From Actinomycetota bacterium (GTDB lineage Bacteria > Actinomycetota > Acidimicrobiia > Acidimicrobiales > Ilumatobacteraceae), in NCBI GenBank assembly GCA_005790505.1, contig SXUP01000017.1, positions 62,001-126,000 on the forward strand: DNA of 64,000 nt, written 5' to 3'. A program made the translations under genes and the position numbers. The notes below the pieces were generated by a model. It worked only from the letters and a program-made list of their open reading frames with translations, was not told the DNA's origin and did not search any database. Position 1 is the first letter of the stretch. The number at the start of each line of letters is the position of its first letter. Of this stretch, positions 29,067-40,114 are shown piece after piece.

Positions 29067-30125
29067 ATGACCAACATGATCAAAACGCCGCAAACTATGG
29101 ATGAGTTGTCAACGCAATGGCTCTCAGATGCATTATCCGCAAAAGTGACAGAGTTTTCTGTGCAAATCATTGGTGCTGGACAGGGCTTTATGGGTCAACT
29201 TGGTCGTGTTCAACTCAACGGTGTCGGCGTACCAAAGAGCGTGATTGTCAAACTCCCAACGACAGACCCCGGCGGCCAAGTGATGGGACAGATGATGCGT
29301 GTGTGGGAACGCGAGCACCGTTTTTATACTGAGGTTGCGGCGCGGATGGGCGATGTTCGACTGGCAAAGTGTTTGTACTCAACGGCTGAGCCGTATGCAC
29401 TAATTCTTGAAGATCTTGCGCCGGCGGAGTCGGGTGATCAAGTGGCTGGCCCGACACCAGATCAAGCACGTCGCGTGATTGATGCTGCGGCAACGTTGCA
29501 TAGTTCATGGTTTGATCATCCAGATTTGGCGCTTCTTGATTGGATGCCCACTATTTCTGATCCAATGACAGCGACAATCGGTTCTTTGTTTGAGGTGGGC
29601 TGGCCTACCTTTCTGGAGAGGTATGAATCATCTTTACCCACTCGTGTCTTGCGGTGGTGTGAGACGTTCGCTCCCATGGTTGAGAGTTGGATTCAGACGT
29701 ACAGCAATTGGCCATGCACATTGTCGCATGGTGACTTCAGGTTGGACAACATGTTTTTTGGGGAGGATGAAACGCTCACACTGATTGATTGGCAGTTGTC
29801 AATGCGTGCTCCCTGCACCACTGATCTTGTGTATTTCATCGGAACGAACTTGCCACGGGAGATGCGCCGAACAATGCAAGACGAGTTGATTGATCGCTAC
29901 GTCAAGGGTTTGCTGGATGGTGGTGTGTCGGCTGAGTGGGCAAATAAAGAAAAAATATTTCAAGGACTCGCTGAAGGCGTGCTATTTTTCTGCACGTCAT
30001 TTGGAGCCAGTATTTTGTCGCTTGATCCGGCCAACGAGCGTGGTGCTGCACTCATGGACTCGCTCGTGCGCAGAGCTTTTGCTGCGGCAGACGATTTAGA
30101 TGCAGGAACCCGGATTGGTCTCTAG
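29067..30125 (+). CDS. Aminoglycoside phosphotransferase/CHK-like kinase
   Basis: A 352-aa protein kinase-like phosphotransferase. The catalytic loop is LSHGDFRLDNMFF and the metal-binding Asp lies in LTLIDWQ; ALILEDLAPAESGDQV is the hinge region. This subgroup (ecdysteroid/CHK kinase-like) is abundant in actinobacteria that degrade lipids and steroids. It probably phosphorylates a small hydroxylated molecule, and antibiotic resistance is not implied. It overlaps the 3' end of the convergent selenoprotein gene by 4 nt. Confidence 0.88.
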   Translation: MTNMIKTPQTMDELSTQWLSDALSAKVTEFSVQIIGAGQGFMGQLGRVQLNGVGVPKSVIVKLPTTDPGGQVMGQMMRVWEREHRFYTEVAARMGDVRLAKCLYSTAEPYALILEDLAPAESGDQVAGPTPDQARRVIDAAATLHSSWFDHPDLALLDWMPTISDPMTATIGSLFEVGWPTFLERYESSLPTRVLRWCETFAPMVESWIQTYSNWPCTLSHGDFRLDNMFFGEDETLTLIDWQLSMRAPCTTDLVYFIGTNLPREMRRTMQDELIDRYVKGLLDGGVSAEWANKEKIFQGLAEGVLFFCTSFGASILSLDPANERGAALMDSLVRRAFAAADDLDAGTRIGL

Positions 30126-30658
30126 GACTCTTGGTTGGTGATGCAAGCCAGAATCTCAGCAAAATATTTGTTAGCGAGTAACCGCATTTCTTCGTCTGTT
30201 CGGTCTTGAATTGGGTGCGTTGTGAACACGCGTTTCATGTCAGGAAAACCTAATGCAAGAGATTGAGAGTTTGCTGCTGAAACAAACTCAGCCGAAGCCA
30301 CAAACATTGATGGAATGCCCCGAAGTTCAAGATCTGCGATGTCATGCACACTGCACGACGTACAACTGCCTCAATCAGCAAGGGCTTCAATAACTAGGTT
30401 GCACTGCATCGCAATCTCATGTCGCATGTCAACCGGAGCAGGCTTTGTAAAAGTTGGTTTGGAGAAACGCAATACCTTTGCACCGCGGCTAATCAGTAAT
30501 TCTTCAACCCGATCAAGAAAGACGTTGCCGCGCGGTTTAGAAATATCTAGCAATCCAACTGTGAGACCCGAAACACTGACAGGCCGAGACAATAGTTGTC
30601 GTGTCGCGGGAATCGACTCGTTTGTTGGATCAAGAATGGTAAGGCCAGCGGAAGTCAT
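30122..30658 (-). CDS. UGSC-type selenoprotein with in-frame UGA (Sec)
   Basis: A 178-aa protein from ATG 30658 (GTG 30676, overlapping the preceding stop, is the alternative). The frame contains a TGA at 30371-30373, read as selenocysteine 96. Read through, it gives LVIEALAD-U-GSCTSCSVHDI, the motif that names the UGSC selenoprotein family, and the same frame runs on to a TAG-type end at 30122. Both halves are protein-like (an alpha/beta half before, LELRGIPSMFVAS after). tRNA-Sec, selB, selA and selD lie 1.5-6 kb away, and an 8-bp hairpin follows the TGA. The U-x-x-C and C-x-x-C spacing suggests a redox site; the substrate is unknown. It is coupled to the upstream thioredoxin-fold gene. An annotation pipeline would split it in two. 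Confidence 0.9.
30341..30359 (-). promoter_or_regulatory. Putative bacterial SECIS hairpin
   Basis: Starting 11 nt after the TGA, the transcript can form an 8-bp stem (GUCGUGCA / UGCAUGAC, one G-U pair) with a GUG loop. Distance and size fit bacterial SECIS elements that SelB binds, and the apical G is expected. The hairpin lies inside the coding sequence, as usual in bacteria. Confidence 0.65.
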
Positions 30659-30672
30659 TGCTAATAAGTATG

Positions 30673-32118
30673 TCACGACCCGACTATGCGAGTCACAGGA
30701 TCACTTCCAATGGCGCTATTTGCCCATCCAGCAATGATGGACGAAAAGAGTCCAGCACCACCTCCTGCGAATGTGAGCAATATTCCGCCTGGTCTGAATT
30801 TGGGAAGCGTGGCGTCGTGCAAGTGAGGAGGAATACCTTCGGCCATTCCGCGTGCACCCCGCACAAGTTGGTCGCCTGGTGTGCGGGAGCGCTCAATGAG
30901 CTGGGCGATTAAGTGCTCACGGGTCCATCCTTCTTCGGCAAAAAGTCGCCCATGATCTGGACTGATAGTCAAAATAGCATCGAATCCGATCACAAGTTTT
31001 GGGTGATGAACAGTTTGAAGACATGCAACGAGTGAATTGGTGAGTTCGTCAGCGGTACGAGCAAGTTGGTCCACAACGCATCGCGGACCTTCACCGGCAA
31101 AAACGGTGACTGCATTTTGTCCGGGCGTTACACCTCGTTCTGTTGCCAGCGACGTGAACGGTGAGCCGATTTCGTCTTCGGCAAAACAAAAAGAGATTTT
31201 TCCGGGATTGCCATGGGTAGCACGGTCTACTTCGCCGGGGCGACCTCCGCCAACATTGCGAATAGTGAGTTGTACGGCGCGACCAATCGTGTTATTGGCG
31301 CGGTTTCCTTGGCCAAATGCGTTCATTCCACTATTCATTCCAATCGCGCGTGTTGCGGGTCCGTTGCAGATGATGACGGGACCAACAGGCATCGTTGTGG
31401 CAAGAACTCCGTGCATATTGAAAGTGTCCGTGCAGACAGCCTCCAGTGCAGCAATGACCCACGGAAGGTACTCAGGCAAGCAACCCGCCATCACAGCGTT
31501 AATGGCAATTTTTTCAACAGTAAGTTCCACTAAATTAGGCGGAGCAATCGCGACCACATCTTGTGGTGCCCGTGTTGTGCCAGTCAACATCCGCAAAACT
31601 CGCTCTGGTGTTGGCGGGACGACTGGCAGACCATCAGTCCATCCGCGCGCGTACATTGCTTCGAATTCATCTTCGTTGGTTGAAAATTCAACATGCCTTG
31701 AAGTGAATGGAGTATCGGTGAATGCAACCCGCAATGCATCAACAAGATCTGGATCTACGCTCATTGAGCCGCACCCTGGTCGCATGACGGGGAGGTCTTC
31801 ACCTAGATCATCAAGACCAGTGAGTCGTTGCCAATCAGTGCGCGACCAACCAAAAGTGCGATCTGTCTCTTTACCGTTCACTACGGTGATCAGCGTCGGA
31901 ACTGTGTCGATCGAATGATGCCATGAGAATGCAAGGTTGGAATCATAAATTGCTGATACAGATTCTGGAAATGTCGGGTCGTCTTGCGTGTACACGGTGA
32001 GATTGGCTCCAGATGCAGCAACAAGGGCTAACAAGGGTTCCACCATCTGACAGGTGGCACAGTCCCGTTTTACGACAACAACTAATCCGTCGGGCAGTTT
32101 GGGGGCGTGAGAAGTCAT
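30673..32118 (-). CDS. Thioredoxin-fold plus large conserved domain protein, partner of UGSC selenoprotein
   Basis: A 481-aa protein. Residues 10-100 form a thioredoxin-like domain with C20-A-T-C23 and a cis-Pro region (IDTVPTLITV). After a linker with RPGCGSMS comes a large domain of about 340 residues (from ARGWTDGLPVVPPTPERV, with VEKIAINAVMAGCLPEYLPW, NGPATRAIGMN and PGEVDRATHGNPGK) that I cannot assign to a named enzyme family. Its stop overlaps the GTG option of the selenoprotein gene, so the two proteins are translationally coupled. A role in passing electrons to or from the UGSC protein is plausible (inference). Confidence 0.8.
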   Translation of the reverse strand: MTSHAPKLPDGLVVVVKRDCATCQMVEPLLALVAASGANLTVYTQDDPTFPESVSAIYDSNLAFSWHHSIDTVPTLITVVNGKETDRTFGWSRTDWQRLTGLDDLGEDLPVMRPGCGSMSVDPDLVDALRVAFTDTPFTSRHVEFSTNEDEFEAMYARGWTDGLPVVPPTPERVLRMLTGTTRAPQDVVAIAPPNLVELTVEKIAINAVMAGCLPEYLPWVIAALEAVCTDTFNMHGVLATTMPVGPVIICNGPATRAIGMNSGMNAFGQGNRANNTIGRAVQLTIRNVGGGRPGEVDRATHGNPGKISFCFAEDEIGSPFTSLATERGVTPGQNAVTVFAGEGPRCVVDQLARTADELTNSLVACLQTVHHPKLVIGFDAILTISPDHGRLFAEEGWTREHLIAQLIERSRTPGDQLVRGARGMAEGIPPHLHDATLPKFRPGGILLTFAGGGAGLFSSIIAGWANSAIGSDPVTRIVGS

Positions 32119-32141
32119 AGCCGAACGCTACCCTCGTGATT

Positions 32142-32237
32142 GGAGGCGTCTGAGCACCTGGTGGGCTTCGCTGTCTTCAAAACAGACGAGACGGGCGAAC
32201 CCCGTCTGGCGGGTTCGATTCCCGTCCGCCTCCGCCA
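32142..32237 (+). tRNA. selC: tRNA-Sec (anticodon TCA)
   Basis: A 96-nt tRNA gene with encoded CCA. The acceptor stem GGAGGCG pairs with CGCCTCC, the anticodon loop CTTCAAA places TCA at 32177-32179, the T arm is GCGGG-TTCGATT-CCCGT, and there is a long variable arm (AGACGGG / CCCGTCT around a short loop). The large extra arm and UCA anticodon define it as selenocysteine tRNA. It is transcribed towards selB, whose stop codon begins at the next base. Confidence 0.95.
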
Positions 32238-33938
32238 TCACCACCTACTTCCTGCCGTGCGAATGTCACCAGTGCGTCGAGTCAAACCAATCTTGTCGAG
32301 ACATGCCACCAGTGGGATGGCGTGTTTGCGAGTGATGGCGAGCGCCTCGCGCAGTTGAGACACCGTGAATCCATTTGGAGAGGCCTGCAACAATGCATTT
32401 ATCTGTGGTCGCAGACCGTGGAGCGTGTCACGATGAAAAGCAATGCCGTCGTGCTCAAAGAGAACTCCCGACTGGACGAGTTGGCGCATGATGTTGCGGT
32501 CGAGTTGATCCGTCTCAGGCGTTACGACTCCGGCGTCGCGAAACATTTCAACATACGGATGTTGCAAAAGTGGATCATTAGTGCCGCGTCGGACAAGCCC
32601 ATTGCTGATGCTGACACCTTCAAGCGTGAGCAAAACATCACGCTCATGTGGTGCAAGTGTGTTGATATCAATTGTTATTTCTGTGGTGAGTCGGTCCGAT
32701 AGAACTGACTGACAATCGGCGAACACTTCGGGGGTCGTTACCCAATCTCCAACGACGGTCGGAACTTCTTTGCCGGTGAGTCTGCGTGCAATGTCTGCAG
32801 TGAGCCAGCCTCTTCCAGCAAGCAGGTCATTGACGTCGCCGTCTGGATTGATGTGAAGAAGGTGTGAATGCGGATCAACATCAAAGATGACGCCACCACC
32901 GATAGTTGCACTAACGCCGGTGTCACGAAGCAGAAATCGATCTCCTGGGACAAGTGGCAGCGGATGAGACAGACGAATACGCACGATGCCGCTATCACCG
33001 GGTTCAATAGAGTCATTTCTCAGCAATCGCATGCTTACAGACTGACTGTTCGTTCCGATATGAACAGTAAAACTGCCGCGCTTTGTAACTGCATGATGAA
33101 TTGAACTCAGCGTTGTGAGTTGGGCATCAAAAAGAATCGTTGACCACCAGTCATCCTCGAGCACGAGTGCATCACCTCGCCGTACATCATTTGTATCCAC
33201 GCCTACGAGGTTGATTGCGCATCGTGTGCCTGGCTGTCCACTTGTGATGACCTCACCATGTGTTTGAATCTCGCGAATACGAGCGCGTTGTGATGTGCGG
33301 GCAACGGTCACCTCAGTGCCAGTAGTCAGTGGGGCGCCCTCGAGCGTGCCAGTGACGATTGTTCCGGCACCAGTCATGCTGAAGACGCGATCGATGAATA
33401 GTCGTGGGCGATTATGTTTGGTCGTAGGAGAGTCCCTCGTGACGAGGTCTTCTAGTTCACGGACAAGAGTGTTGATTCCGGCGTCGTTCATCACTGATGT
33501 GGGGACGATGGCCGACCAAGCAACCGTAGTCGCATCAAGGCGTGTCTGAATCTGCTTCGTTCTGTCCGCCAACATGAGCGCGTCAACTTTGTCGCTTTTA
33601 GTGAGTGCCACAACACCGCGGGAGATTCCCAGAACTTCAATAATCCCAATGTGCTCTTCGGTCTGTTGTTTCCAACCCTCCAGTGCGTCAACGACGAGCA
33701 GTGCAATATCTACACCACTAACTCCTGAAACCATTGTGCGGACAAAATCTGCATGTCCGGGTACATCAATAAAACTCAAGGTCTGGCCCCGTGGGGTGGT
33801 GACATGAGCAAAGCCCAGATCAATTGTCATGTTGCGTCTTTGTTCTTCGGCAAGACGATCTGGATTCGTACCAGTAATGGCTTGCACAAGAGACGATTTT
33901 CCGTGATCAACATGACCAGCAGTGGCGATGACTGTCAT
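32238..33938 (-). CDS. selB: Selenocysteine-specific elongation factor SelB
   Basis: A 566-aa protein from ATG 33938; upstream in-frame sequence overlaps selA and is not conserved. The GTPase domain has GHVDHGKSSL (G1), DVPGHADFV (G3) and TKSDKVD (G4), followed by EF-Tu-like beta barrels (FSMTGAGTIVTGTLEG) and C-terminal winged-helix repeats that bind SECIS RNA (ending LREALAITRKHAIPLVACLD). It delivers Sec-tRNA to UGA codons. The start lies 4 nt after selA, so the two form an operon. Confidence 0.96.
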   Translation of the reverse strand: MTVIATAGHVDHGKSSLVQAITGTNPDRLAEEQRRNMTIDLGFAHVTTPRGQTLSFIDVPGHADFVRTMVSGVSGVDIALLVVDALEGWKQQTEEHIGIIEVLGISRGVVALTKSDKVDALMLADRTKQIQTRLDATTVAWSAIVPTSVMNDAGINTLVRELEDLVTRDSPTTKHNRPRLFIDRVFSMTGAGTIVTGTLEGAPLTTGTEVTVARTSQRARIREIQTHGEVITSGQPGTRCAINLVGVDTNDVRRGDALVLEDDWWSTILFDAQLTTLSSIHHAVTKRGSFTVHIGTNSQSVSMRLLRNDSIEPGDSGIVRIRLSHPLPLVPGDRFLLRDTGVSATIGGGVIFDVDPHSHLLHINPDGDVNDLLAGRGWLTADIARRLTGKEVPTVVGDWVTTPEVFADCQSVLSDRLTTEITIDINTLAPHERDVLLTLEGVSISNGLVRRGTNDPLLQHPYVEMFRDAGVVTPETDQLDRNIMRQLVQSGVLFEHDGIAFHRDTLHGLRPQINALLQASPNGFTVSQLREALAITRKHAIPLVACLDKIGLTRRTGDIRTAGSRW

Positions 33939-33942
33939 GGAA

Positions 33943-35241
33943 TCAGCAAAGGGCAGTGAGTGCGGCAACCACGATGGCGTCGTCTTGTGGTGCCACACTG
34001 CGCAGGTCAAGGTATGTGGTGTTGTTGACGGTTCGAGAAATCACAGCGATGTCGTGCGCGCGCAAAGCAGTACTGTGATCGCCCGTAAGAGCGATGCCGA
34101 CTGATGGCACTGTTGAGCCTGGCGCAGAACCTGCCCCGACAAGTGAATCAAGTGAGACAACTGAACCAATGCCGGATCGCCGCACAATTTCTGCGGCACG
34201 TGACTCCAGGATTGCTCGCGGTGTCGCCACCATTTTCCAAAACGAAACATCAGTGCAGACGGTGCGCGCACAATACGAAAGCAGTACAGATTGCAACATC
34301 AATAATGTATGGCCACCAGGTCTTAGCGCCCGCATCAATGGATGTGAGGCACATGTTTGGACAAGGTCTGCACGCCCAGCGATGATTCCGCATTGCGGCC
34401 CACCCAATAGTTTGTCGCCACTGAACATCACCAGGGCTGCACCGTCGCTTAGTGCTTGACGTGCTGCTGGTTCATTACCTAGCCATGAAGGGACACGGTC
34501 GACATGTCCGTGCAACCACGGACACGTGTTATCAATTAGGCCTGATCCAATGTCAGCAATCACTGGTACGGACAACGTTGCCAGTTCTGCTACGGATGTT
34601 GTTTGAGTAAATCCCTGAATTGCGAAGTTTGATGGGTGGATTTTCATAGTGAGCGCGATGTCGTTACGTTTTGATTCAATCGCCTTGCTGTAGTCCTTTA
34701 GTCGCGTTCTATTTGTTGTGCCAACGTCTACAAGATGTGCGCCAGATTGCTCCATCACATCGGGGATACGAAAACCACCGCCAATCTCAACACTCTCGCC
34801 GCGCGACACGGCAACGCCACGATTAGATGCAAGTGCTGCGAGCACCAATATCACAGCAGCAGCATTGTTGTTGACAACAATTGCGGCTTCAGCACCAGTG
34901 AGAACAGAAATTAATCTTGATGCTGATGTTTGGCGCGATCCGCGTTCCCCGCTTGCGAGGTCATATTCAAGATTTGTTGGTCGACCTGAACCAATTGTTG
35001 TTTGTGGTGCTCGGCCCAGATTGGTGTGTAACAACACACCAGTTGCATTGATGACTTCGGTGAGTAATGCAGTTTCAAGATCGTTCGTGAGTCTTTGCGC
35101 TGCTGACAGCGCATCATTTGGCGTTTGAACGACTGCGCGGCGAGCACAATCAACAAGAAGTGAGTGGGGCAGCGTGGATTGGGCGGCGAGGGCTCGAGCG
35201 ATGGTGTCGATAGACGGCGGATGCGTTGCTGATGGTGCCAC
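33943..35241 (-). CDS. selA: L-seryl-tRNA(Sec) selenium transferase SelA
   Basis: A 432-aa PLP enzyme from GTG 35241. The PLP lysine is Lys277 in MFSGDKLLGGPQ; INATGVLLHTNLGRAP and VVNNNAAAVILVL are family blocks. It converts seryl-tRNA(Sec) to selenocysteyl-tRNA(Sec) with selenophosphate. First gene of the selA-selB operon and divergent from selD with only about 26 nt between starts, so the promoters must overlap. Confidence 0.96.
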   Translation of the reverse strand: MAPSATHPPSIDTIARALAAQSTLPHSLLVDCARRAVVQTPNDALSAAQRLTNDLETALLTEVINATGVLLHTNLGRAPQTTIGSGRPTNLEYDLASGERGSRQTSASRLISVLTGAEAAIVVNNNAAAVILVLAALASNRGVAVSRGESVEIGGGFRIPDVMEQSGAHLVDVGTTNRTRLKDYSKAIESKRNDIALTMKIHPSNFAIQGFTQTTSVAELATLSVPVIADIGSGLIDNTCPWLHGHVDRVPSWLGNEPAARQALSDGAALVMFSGDKLLGGPQCGIIAGRADLVQTCASHPLMRALRPGGHTLLMLQSVLLSYCARTVCTDVSFWKMVATPRAILESRAAEIVRRSGIGSVVSLDSLVGAGSAPGSTVPSVGIALTGDHSTALRAHDIAVISRTVNNTTYLDLRSVAPQDDAIVVAALTALC

Positions 35242-35267
35242 CTTTTCAACCTAGTAGTTTGCATTGC

Positions 35268-36281
35268 GTGCTTAAGAACGCTTCTCCCATCAGGCTCACC
35301 GAATGGACGTCGTGTGGCGGGTGCGCCGCCAAATGGGGTGCAACAATGTTGGCTGAAATGGTACAGGAATTGCCAGTGGGATTTGATTCGTCGCTGTTGG
35401 TGGGTCTTGCTCCTTTTGATGACGCAGCTGTCTATCAACTCACTGATGATCTTGCGTTGGTCAGCACAACAGATTTTTTCCCGCCACTCGTCGATGACCC
35501 TGCAGATTTTGGCGCGATTGCAGCAGCCAATGCGTGCAGTGATGTTTTTGCAATGGGTGGACGCGTGGTGCTGGCTGTCAACATTGCAGCGTTTCCAGAA
35601 GAACTTCCCCGCGATGTAATCGCTGCAATTTTTGCAAGTGCTTCAGAAACAGTTATTGCCGCTGGTGGCACGATTGCAGGAGGGCACACGATTCGCAATC
35701 CTGAGCCAATCTTTGGACTTGCCGTACAAGGAGTAGTTGACCCGCGGCATATTTTTCGCAAGGGTGGTGCCCAGCCAGGTGACGTCGCAATTTTGTCCAA
35801 GCCAATAGGTACAGGTCTTGTCACGGCAGGTGGTACCAGTGAGCAAAAACGTGAAGTGATTGCTGGAATGCGCACGCTAAACAAAAAATCTGCCGAAGAT
35901 CTGCGCCGATATGCCATTGATGTGCATGCCGTTACTGATGTCACCGGATACGGACTTGCAGGTCATGGATGGGAAATAGCCGAACGCTCTGGAATAAAAT
36001 TTATTGTTGACACGATGTCACTGCCGCTCTACTCAGGCGCGCATGATCTTGCAGTATTTGGGACTCGCACGGGTGGCGATGCTCGCAACCGCTCGTATGT
36101 CGGAGATCACGCCGTGATCAATGCACACGAAACGTATGTCGCACTATGCATGGACCCACAAACATCGGGTGGGTTGCTGGCTGCTGTCGCACCGCATGTT
36201 GCGCGCGATCTAGTGAGCGAAGGTACGTGGGTCAGCATCGGATATTTTGAATCCGGCACGCCAGCCATCGAACTTCGCTAG
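35268..36281 (+). CDS. selD: Selenide, water dikinase SelD
   Basis: A 337-aa protein from GTG 35268; the frame extends upstream but would run into selA. Cys19 and Lys22 in TSCGGCAAK align with the catalytic Cys17 and Lys20 of the E. coli enzyme, so this is a Cys-form SelD, not itself a selenoprotein. ANACSDVFAMGG, GGHTIRNPEP and VTDVTGYGLAGHGWE are typical. It makes selenophosphate from selenide and ATP for SelA. Confidence 0.96.
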   Translation: MLKNASPIRLTEWTSCGGCAAKWGATMLAEMVQELPVGFDSSLLVGLAPFDDAAVYQLTDDLALVSTTDFFPPLVDDPADFGAIAAANACSDVFAMGGRVVLAVNIAAFPEELPRDVIAAIFASASETVIAAGGTIAGGHTIRNPEPIFGLAVQGVVDPRHIFRKGGAQPGDVAILSKPIGTGLVTAGGTSEQKREVIAGMRTLNKKSAEDLRRYAIDVHAVTDVTGYGLAGHGWEIAERSGIKFIVDTMSLPLYSGAHDLAVFGTRTGGDARNRSYVGDHAVINAHETYVALCMDPQTSGGLLAAVAPHVARDLVSEGTWVSIGYFESGTPAIELR

Positions 36282-38972: not shown

Positions 38973-39836
38973 TTATTGGTCCACCTGTTGTGAGGCTAAC
39001 ACAGGGTTTTCGGCCCACCATTTAGTGGCGAACTCGACCGGGGTCAGATAGGAAAGCGCACTGTGCGGGCGGTAATGGTTGTAGTTGTTGCGGTGTTCTT
39101 CAAGCATGAAACGGATTTCCCACATCGAATCAAACACTTCTCTGGTTAGTAGTTCGTCTCTGAGTCTCGAGTTGAACGATTCGACGCGACCGTTTTGCCA
39201 GGGTGAACCTGGATCGCAATAGTTTGCTTGAATGTTTTGTTCTTTGCACCAGTCACGCAGAGTGTCGGCAATGAACTCTGGTCCGTTATCCATCCGCAGA
39301 AACTGTGGTACGCCACGATGTTCGCGTATCTGATCAAGAACAGCCATCGTGCCTGCTGCAGTGATCCGGCGTGCTGCGTTCGTGGCGAGCGCTTCACGAG
39401 TGAACTCGTCAGTCACATTCAAAATCTTCACGGGTCGTCCGTCAGCTGTTTCATCAAACTGAAAATCGATCGCCCACACATGATTCGGATATGTGCCCCG
39501 AACAATAATCGGTTGACGGGCAATCTTGGTTTTGCGACGTTTAGGGCGTTGCACATGCAAACCCTCGAGACGCCATAAACGTTGCACCCGTTTACGATTC
39601 ACCTGATACCCGTCACGCAACAACATCACATGAACACGCCGATACCCATAACGAGGATATTTCACCGCCAACGCCCGGATCTGTTGCCGCAAACACGCCA
39701 CTTGAGGCCTGCGAACATGTTTGTGACGTTGTGTGCTGCGATACTGGCCAACCACCAGACACGCTCTTCTTTGAGACACCCCGAACTCGTCAACAAGAGC
39801 CAACACAGCGACCCGTTTCTGGTTCGGGGTCACCAT
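38973..39836 (-). CDS. IS3-family transposase OrfB (DDE integrase core)
   Basis: A 287-aa protein with the rve integrase core: first Asp in VWAIDFQFDE, second in LRMDNGPEF, and Glu in NGRVESFNSRLRDE. An N-terminal HTH_21-like region (RRACLVVGQYRSTQR) is present. All three catalytic residues are intact. It overlaps OrfA by 7 nt, so OrfAB could arise by frameshift or by re-initiation. Confidence 0.95.
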   Translation of the reverse strand: MVTPNQKRVAVLALVDEFGVSQRRACLVVGQYRSTQRHKHVRRPQVACLRQQIRALAVKYPRYGYRRVHVMLLRDGYQVNRKRVQRLWRLEGLHVQRPKRRKTKIARQPIIVRGTYPNHVWAIDFQFDETADGRPVKILNVTDEFTREALATNAARRITAAGTMAVLDQIREHRGVPQFLRMDNGPEFIADTLRDWCKEQNIQANYCDPGSPWQNGRVESFNSRLRDELLTREVFDSMWEIRFMLEEHRNNYNHYRPHSALSYLTPVEFATKWWAENPVLASQQVDQ

Positions 39837-40114
39837 TTTCCCTTAGCAACCATCCTCAACATGTCGTTATCGAGTTCCTTCTCGGCGAGTAGACGTTTCA
39901 ATCGGGCGTTTTCTTGTTCCAACGTTTTGAGTCGTGCCACATCATCAGGTCGCATCGCCCCATATTGGCTACGCCACCGCTGATACGTCTGATGAGATAT
40001 CTCCAAATGTCGCATCACTTCAGCTAGCGGAATACTCTCCGCCAACAACCGGTCAGCTTCACGCAGTTTGCGCACAATCTGCTCAGGTGTGTGTCTGGTC
40101 CGTTTCATATCCAT
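39830..40114 (-). CDS. IS3-family transposase OrfA (HTH protein)
   Basis: A 94-aa protein with an N-terminal helix-turn-helix (RHTPEQIVRKLREADRLL, ISHQTYQRWRSQYG) and a C-terminal leucine-zipper-like coiled coil (LKTLEQENARLKRLLAEKEL). It is the standard first frame of IS3 elements and binds the terminal repeats. Full length by family standard. Confidence 0.95.
   Translation of the reverse strand: MDMKRTRHTPEQIVRKLREADRLLAESIPLAEVMRHLEISHQTYQRWRSQYGAMRPDDVARLKTLEQENARLKRLLAEKELDNDMLRMVAKGKW

Follow-up and report, generated by a model that had tools for sequence, protein, structure and literature searches.

A UGSC-family selenoprotein gene from an Ilumatobacteraceae bacterium, its overlapping partner gene and a probable distant kinship with GrdB and PrdB

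The window analysed here is a stretch of 64,000 nucleotides from an Actinomycetota genome of the family Ilumatobacteraceae (assembly GCA_005790505.1, contig SXUP01000017.1, positions 62,001 to 126,000 of the forward strand). Judged from its sequence, the gene under study, which lies on the minus strand, is that of a full-length UGSC selenoprotein, with selenocysteine (Sec) at a UGA codon, a hairpin downstream and the Sec system adjacent (Table 1; positions are those of the window). The UGSC family was described by Zhang and Gladyshev in 2008 in the selenoproteome of the Global Ocean Sampling (GOS) data (PMC2398784), where it was called the most frequent selenoprotein family in non-marine aquatic samples, and it is curated in Pfam and NCBIfam. 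The closest public relatives of the present gene are in acIV/Acidimicrobiaceae freshwater metagenome-assembled genomes (MAGs), and beyond these there are related copies in Pseudonocardia lacus and in MAGs that carry the labels Pseudomonadales, Myxococcota and Chloroflexi. The gene is a further member of this known family and shows no departure from its features, which limits its novelty. The useful additions are a corrected fold, an obligate partner with a thioredoxin domain and a probable relationship to GrdB and PrdB, selenoproteins of the enzymes that act reductively on glycine and proline; the last two of these we did not find in the published accounts of UGSC that were consulted. The initial annotation of this DNA, made from the sequence alone, had missed both the published status of the family and a conserved partner gene overlapping the UGSC start.

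Table 1. Features of the UGSC locus and of the neighbouring Sec system
Feature	Position	Strand	Description	Basis
UGSC-family selenoprotein gene	30122..30676	-	184 residues; GTG start, TAG stop	translation, PF24696, NF041046
UGA codon read as Sec	30371..30373	-	residue 102, position 1 of UGSCTSC motif	homologous motif codons
Predicted bacterial SECIS hairpin	30341..30359	-	8-bp stem GTCGTGCA/TGCATGAC, apical loop GTG	covariation
Partner gene	30673..32118	-	481 aa, directly upstream of UGSC	no Pfam/NCBIfam family above cut-off
GTGA overlap	30673..30676	-	partner stop / UGSC start	sequence
Thioredoxin-like domain of partner	31804..32118	-	N-terminal, about residues 1-105	structure model, PDB structure matches, weak profile matches
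CATC (CxxC) redox motif	32050..32061	-	in the thioredoxin-like domain of the partner	read from sequence
C-terminal domain of partner	30676..31743	-	about residues 126-481, unnamed	alignment of partners
tRNA-Sec	32142..32237	+	anticodon TCA	ARAGORN; Rfam RF01852, 62.9 bits
selB	32238..34010	-	Sec-specific elongation factor	TIGR00475, 277.9 bits (cut-off 242)
selA	33943..35241	-	L-seryl-tRNA(Sec) selenium transferase	TIGR00474, 383.4 bits
selD	35226..36281	+	selenide water dikinase, Cys form	TIGR00476, 321.8 bits

The UGA codon and its surroundings

A single TGA, at 30373..30371, interrupts the minus-strand frame that runs from GTG to TAG (30676..30122). Joined across this codon, the protein reads ...EIAMQCNLVIEALAD-U-GSCTSCSVHDIADLELRGIP..., which confirms the initial proposal that two fragments belong together as EALAD-U-GSCTSCSVHDI in one open frame. 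The family models span both halves over nearly their full length: PF24696 (UGSC family) matched residues 13-180 of the joined protein with an E value of 1.1e-42 and 146.5 bits (cut-off 25), and NF041046 ('UGSC family (seleno)protein') scored 154.3 bits against a curated cut-off of 125. The motif codons TGA-GGC-AGT-TGT (30373..30362) are likewise those of the UGSC/CGSC family. Sec is residue 102 when counted from the GTG at 30676, and the residue number 96 given at first is correct when counted from an alternative start, the ATG at 30658; the GTG after the motif, from which the second fragment would otherwise be called, is also present (V109). As to the setting of the motif, the two separate motifs pictured in the initial annotation are a single U-x-x-C-x-x-C, namely UGSCTSC.

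PF24696 was present in 64 of 100 related genomes, and nearly all full-length matches contained exactly one internal TGA. Among all loci fetched, TGA stood at the motif in 140 of 142 hits and Cys codons in the other 2; with identical sequences removed, the counts were 130 and 2 of 132. A second TGA, present in a few hits, was the ordinary terminal stop, 79-86 codons further on. The homologs thus match from end to end with U or Cys at the motif, the outcome that the initial annotation had named as support, and contradict what it had named as refutation, homologs that end at the stop or none that align over both halves. Over the 39 codons past the UGA, comparison with the nearest pair of relatives, at about 90% identity, gave 7-8 synonymous against 2 non-synonymous changes, a ratio expected of coding sequence, with a weaker skew against more distant congeners. 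Taken together, the end-to-end family matches, the TGA in 130 of 132 homologs and the mostly synonymous changes past it exclude chance. Although translation table 11 formally yields two open reading frames (ORFs), a genuine stop, which would leave either a decayed gene or a pair of short proteins, is scarcely tenable where the only alternatives to TGA are Cys codons, the family models span both halves, the changes past the codon are mostly synonymous and the Sec machinery lies next door.

Twelve nucleotides past the UGA begins a 19-nucleotide hairpin with a perfect 8-bp stem and, as in bacterial Sec insertion sequence (SECIS) elements, a G among the first two nucleotides of the loop. An Rfam search of the site matched no SECIS family, and covariation was therefore used to test the hairpin. 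In the 132 distinct sequences its stem was paired at a mean of 7.31 of its 8 positions, compared with 5.02-5.45 in 40 synonymous shuffles, and the mean folding energy was -14.4 against about -12.1 in the shuffles. Compensatory changes were found at pairs in which both sides are third codon positions, namely 15-27 (GC to AT) and 18-24 (CG to GC). The SECIS hairpin is predicted from this covariation and carries no family assignment.

All the genes of the Sec system had been placed within 6 kb, and tRNA-Sec, selB, selA and selD were indeed found within 5.6 kb. Among the 100 genomes, selA and UGSC occurred together in 59, neither in 22, UGSC only in 5 and selA only in 14 (Fisher p 1.6e-8, shared ancestry uncorrected). 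Family models, codon conservation, the SECIS hairpin, Sec machinery and the substitution pattern support the initial interpretation of a UGSC selenoprotein with redox chemistry. By comparison, Sec is placed at the UGA by the neighbouring SelA/SelB/SelD/tRNA-Sec system, acting through the hairpin.

Some further features were seen around the Sec system and elsewhere in the genome. The tRNA-Sec gene fills the space (window 32118-32238) that separates the partner gene from the selB end; it is on the opposite strand and directly abuts the selB stop. Contig C7 of this genome (12431-12766, minus strand) encodes a Prx-like (AhpC-TSA) protein with one in-frame TGA near ...WAPYCGCSGDLPVWQ..., and this is probably the known UGC-type Prx-like selenoprotein. 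Given this in-frame TGA in a second gene, we abandoned the idea that UGSC alone makes use of the Sec system. Further along the window, two minus-strand ORFs (38973-40114) resemble an IS3-type transposase pair (helix-turn-helix orfA, DDE orfB).

An obligate partner gene

Every UGSC gene examined had a relative of the partner on the same strand, either upstream or downstream. The two were usually adjacent, were 1.4-3.3 kb apart in a few loci and were fused in several. At the present locus, the stop of the partner and the start of UGSC overlap in GTGA, which suggests translational coupling. Of the 100 genomes, 64 had UGSC and 67 the partner. In each of the four genomes with the partner only (G006, G030, G034 and G056) it was located at a contig end, as were the surplus partner copies of two others (G046 and G028), and the single genome with UGSC only (G077) had the partner as a short fragment. 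Where UGSC was most numerous, the numbers were equal, with ten matches of each kind in one genome (G071). On this sequence evidence UGSC and its partner are an obligate pair.

The ten UGSC matches of G071 and the five of G099 (loci L052-L062, L092 and L106) stand in differing gene contexts, and at L106 two UGSC genes lie close to four partner-like genes. UGSC is fused N-terminally to the partner domain at L057, L106 and L108-L110; the fusions at L106 and L108-L110 have the motif UGSCTPA, and that at L057 is a Cys form (CGSC) beside a gene resembling a hydantoinase subunit. A fusion of UGSC with a protein called Unknown_1 was reported in the GOS selenoproteome (PMC2398784). The partner is plausibly Unknown_1, as judged from the reported fusion and not from a comparison of alignments.

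The structure model of the partner (predicted local distance difference test (pLDDT) 94.8) points to two parts. Its best 50 PDB matches were mostly thioredoxins and DsbE/CcmG-like proteins, and these covered only the N-terminal domain, which is thioredoxin-like with a CATC motif; C-x-T-C is the majority residue pattern at this CxxC (alignment A2), and weak thioredoxin profile matches were obtained in 32 of 54 partner members. The C-terminal domain, of about 355 residues, is common to all partners, including those of divergent paralogs that have no thioredoxin domain. It contains invariant D162, G163, P165, R280 and E314 and near-invariant C213 and C311, and sequence profile searches with the partner, this domain included, gave no match among PDB sequences.

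Fold of UGSC and kinship with GrdB and PrdB

In the UGSC model (pLDDT 93.8), helices alternate with five strands in a parallel alpha/beta arrangement, and Sec stands at the start of the helix past the third strand. The best of its PDB structure matches had E 8e-5, and the folds matched were those of lumazine synthase and TIR, flavodoxin-type folds and the like; a profile search against PDB sequences gave no match, and DUF116 was matched weakly in 12 of 58 UGSC members (best E 0.034). UGSC is accordingly modelled as a single flavodoxin/Rossmann-like domain, and a thioredoxin fold is not predicted. A Trx-like fold was, however, proposed for the family in PMC2398784, and a 2026 review lists UGSC among thioredoxin-fold proteins (PMC13188914), from which it would be a thioredoxin-fold thiol/selenol oxidoreductase; the position of UxxC at a helix start does resemble a thioredoxin motif. 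We consider this improbable, because the model is confident in its alternating fold with Sec past the third strand, because thioredoxin was absent from the best 50 PDB matches and Pfam thioredoxin families matched none of the 58 members, and because the thioredoxin domain is found on the partner instead, the UGSC chain itself being unlike thioredoxin.

A profile of the 58 UGSC proteins was compared by hhalign with one of 19 GrdB and PrdB-like sequences from the same bacterial order. The score was 48.2, at a probability of 87% and an E value of 4.4e-6 for a single comparison; Sec fell on Sec, and the AGIP/RGIP strand past it was aligned as well. Controls remained well below this value: none of 100 column permutations scored above 28.3, the reversed profile gave 16.8, and for 43 other families of proteins encoded at these loci no score exceeded 28.5. 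Masking the motif still left 39.0. Against PrdB-like sequences alone or GrdB alone the score fell short of 48.2 (36.7 and 33.6, respectively). From these sequence profiles, UGSC and GrdB/PrdB are probably distant homologs and not members of one family.

The comparison of individual features runs along the same lines. GrdB (selenoprotein B of glycine/sarcosine/betaine reductase; PF07355, TIGR01918) has U-x-x-C-x-x-C or UxxxxxC at a helix start past a hydrophobic strand, as UGSC has, and the same RGIP/AGIP strand pattern past the motif, but it is about 430 residues long compared with about 180 for UGSC. In the same bacterial order, GrdB has U at the motif (ILTATUGTGTRCG), as do the shorter PrdB-like proteins (VPVUPVCHQT). 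The PrdB-like selenoproteins (TIGR04483-related; L037, L040 and L043) are single-chain UxxC proteins with a C-terminal alpha/beta half comparable to UGSC; their UPVC motif and N-terminal half differ from it, and their 1.5-kb flanks showed no copy of the partner. Many PrdB-like genes (L037-L051) are split by TGA (VPV-U-PVCHQT), where the PF07355 match stops, and the GrdB genes at L032-L035 also have an in-frame TGA (ATUGTGTRC).

Proposed function

On balance we favour, with some reserve, a two-component reductase formed by the UGSC selenoprotein and its overlapping partner, with Sec placed as in GrdB/PrdB and the thioredoxin built in. The Sec selenol would attack an electrophilic substrate held together with the C-terminal domain of the partner, and a bond of the substrate would be cleaved reductively. 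Sec would be left as a selenenyl-sulfide with Cys105, which the partner's own thioredoxin domain (CATC) could then reduce; paralogs without this domain would rely on free thioredoxin. This chemistry has a precedent in glycine reductase, where reduction is supplied by thioredoxin and an interaction of the GrdB motif UxxCxxC with GrdA is likely (PMC13188914).

Several observations weigh against such a reductase. None of the 58 UGSC members matched the PF07355 (GRDB) model, with hits allowed up to E 10 (a PF07355 search of the genome itself also gave no match). The ground for the kinship is therefore the comparison of profiles, for which the alignment of 19 GrdB/PrdB sequences is thin. The partner showed no similarity to GrdE (score 16.5, with only two GrdE sequences), and the complex is therefore probably not simply a GrdB/GrdE pair. 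The partners of many paralogs have no thioredoxin domain. Finally, the neighbours give no clue to a substrate, as only the partner is conserved beyond local synteny, which consists of MutY-like, flavin reductase-like and carbonic anhydrase-like genes (named by eye).

Two other activities can be considered for the pair. It might be a selenium-dependent non-redox enzyme with Sec as nucleophile or metal ligand, acting for instance on coenzyme A (CoA) thioesters: the invariant D, R and E residues of the partner look catalytic, and some divergent paralogs lie near genes resembling thiolase, acyl-CoA synthetase, dehydrogenase and hydantoinase (by eye, not profile-tested). The contexts of the divergent paralogs are mixed and inconsistent, however, and both the conserved C105 near Sec and, in the main clade, a thioredoxin domain with CxxC speak for turnover by redox chemistry, which makes this reading doubtful. 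Still less probable is an enzyme that detoxifies peroxide or other oxidants together with the thioredoxin domain. Sec with thioredoxin is a common peroxidase arrangement and the host organisms belong to aquatic plankton lineages, but Pfam and NCBIfam searches revealed no similarity to peroxiredoxin or glutathione peroxidase, and such a function leaves the large domain of the obligate partner unexplained.

More tentatively, and with the odds slightly against it, UGSC and its partner might add a third branch to the selenium reductases of the GrdB/PrdB kind. This branch would be at work in aquatic plankton lineages rather than in anaerobes that ferment, and its reductant, thioredoxin, would be part of a partner whose catalytic domain has an unassigned fold. 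On this reading, where a lineage has as many as ten paralog pairs, these would form a set of reductases for different substrates. For annotation, the locus illustrates that standard gene calling breaks the UGSC protein in two at the UGA, and that the partner, for which searches gave nothing above cut-off, has no family entry in Pfam or NCBIfam. With a constant partner and a probable link to GrdB/PrdB, an orphan family becomes one that can be co-expressed and assayed, and the question of its function becomes testable.
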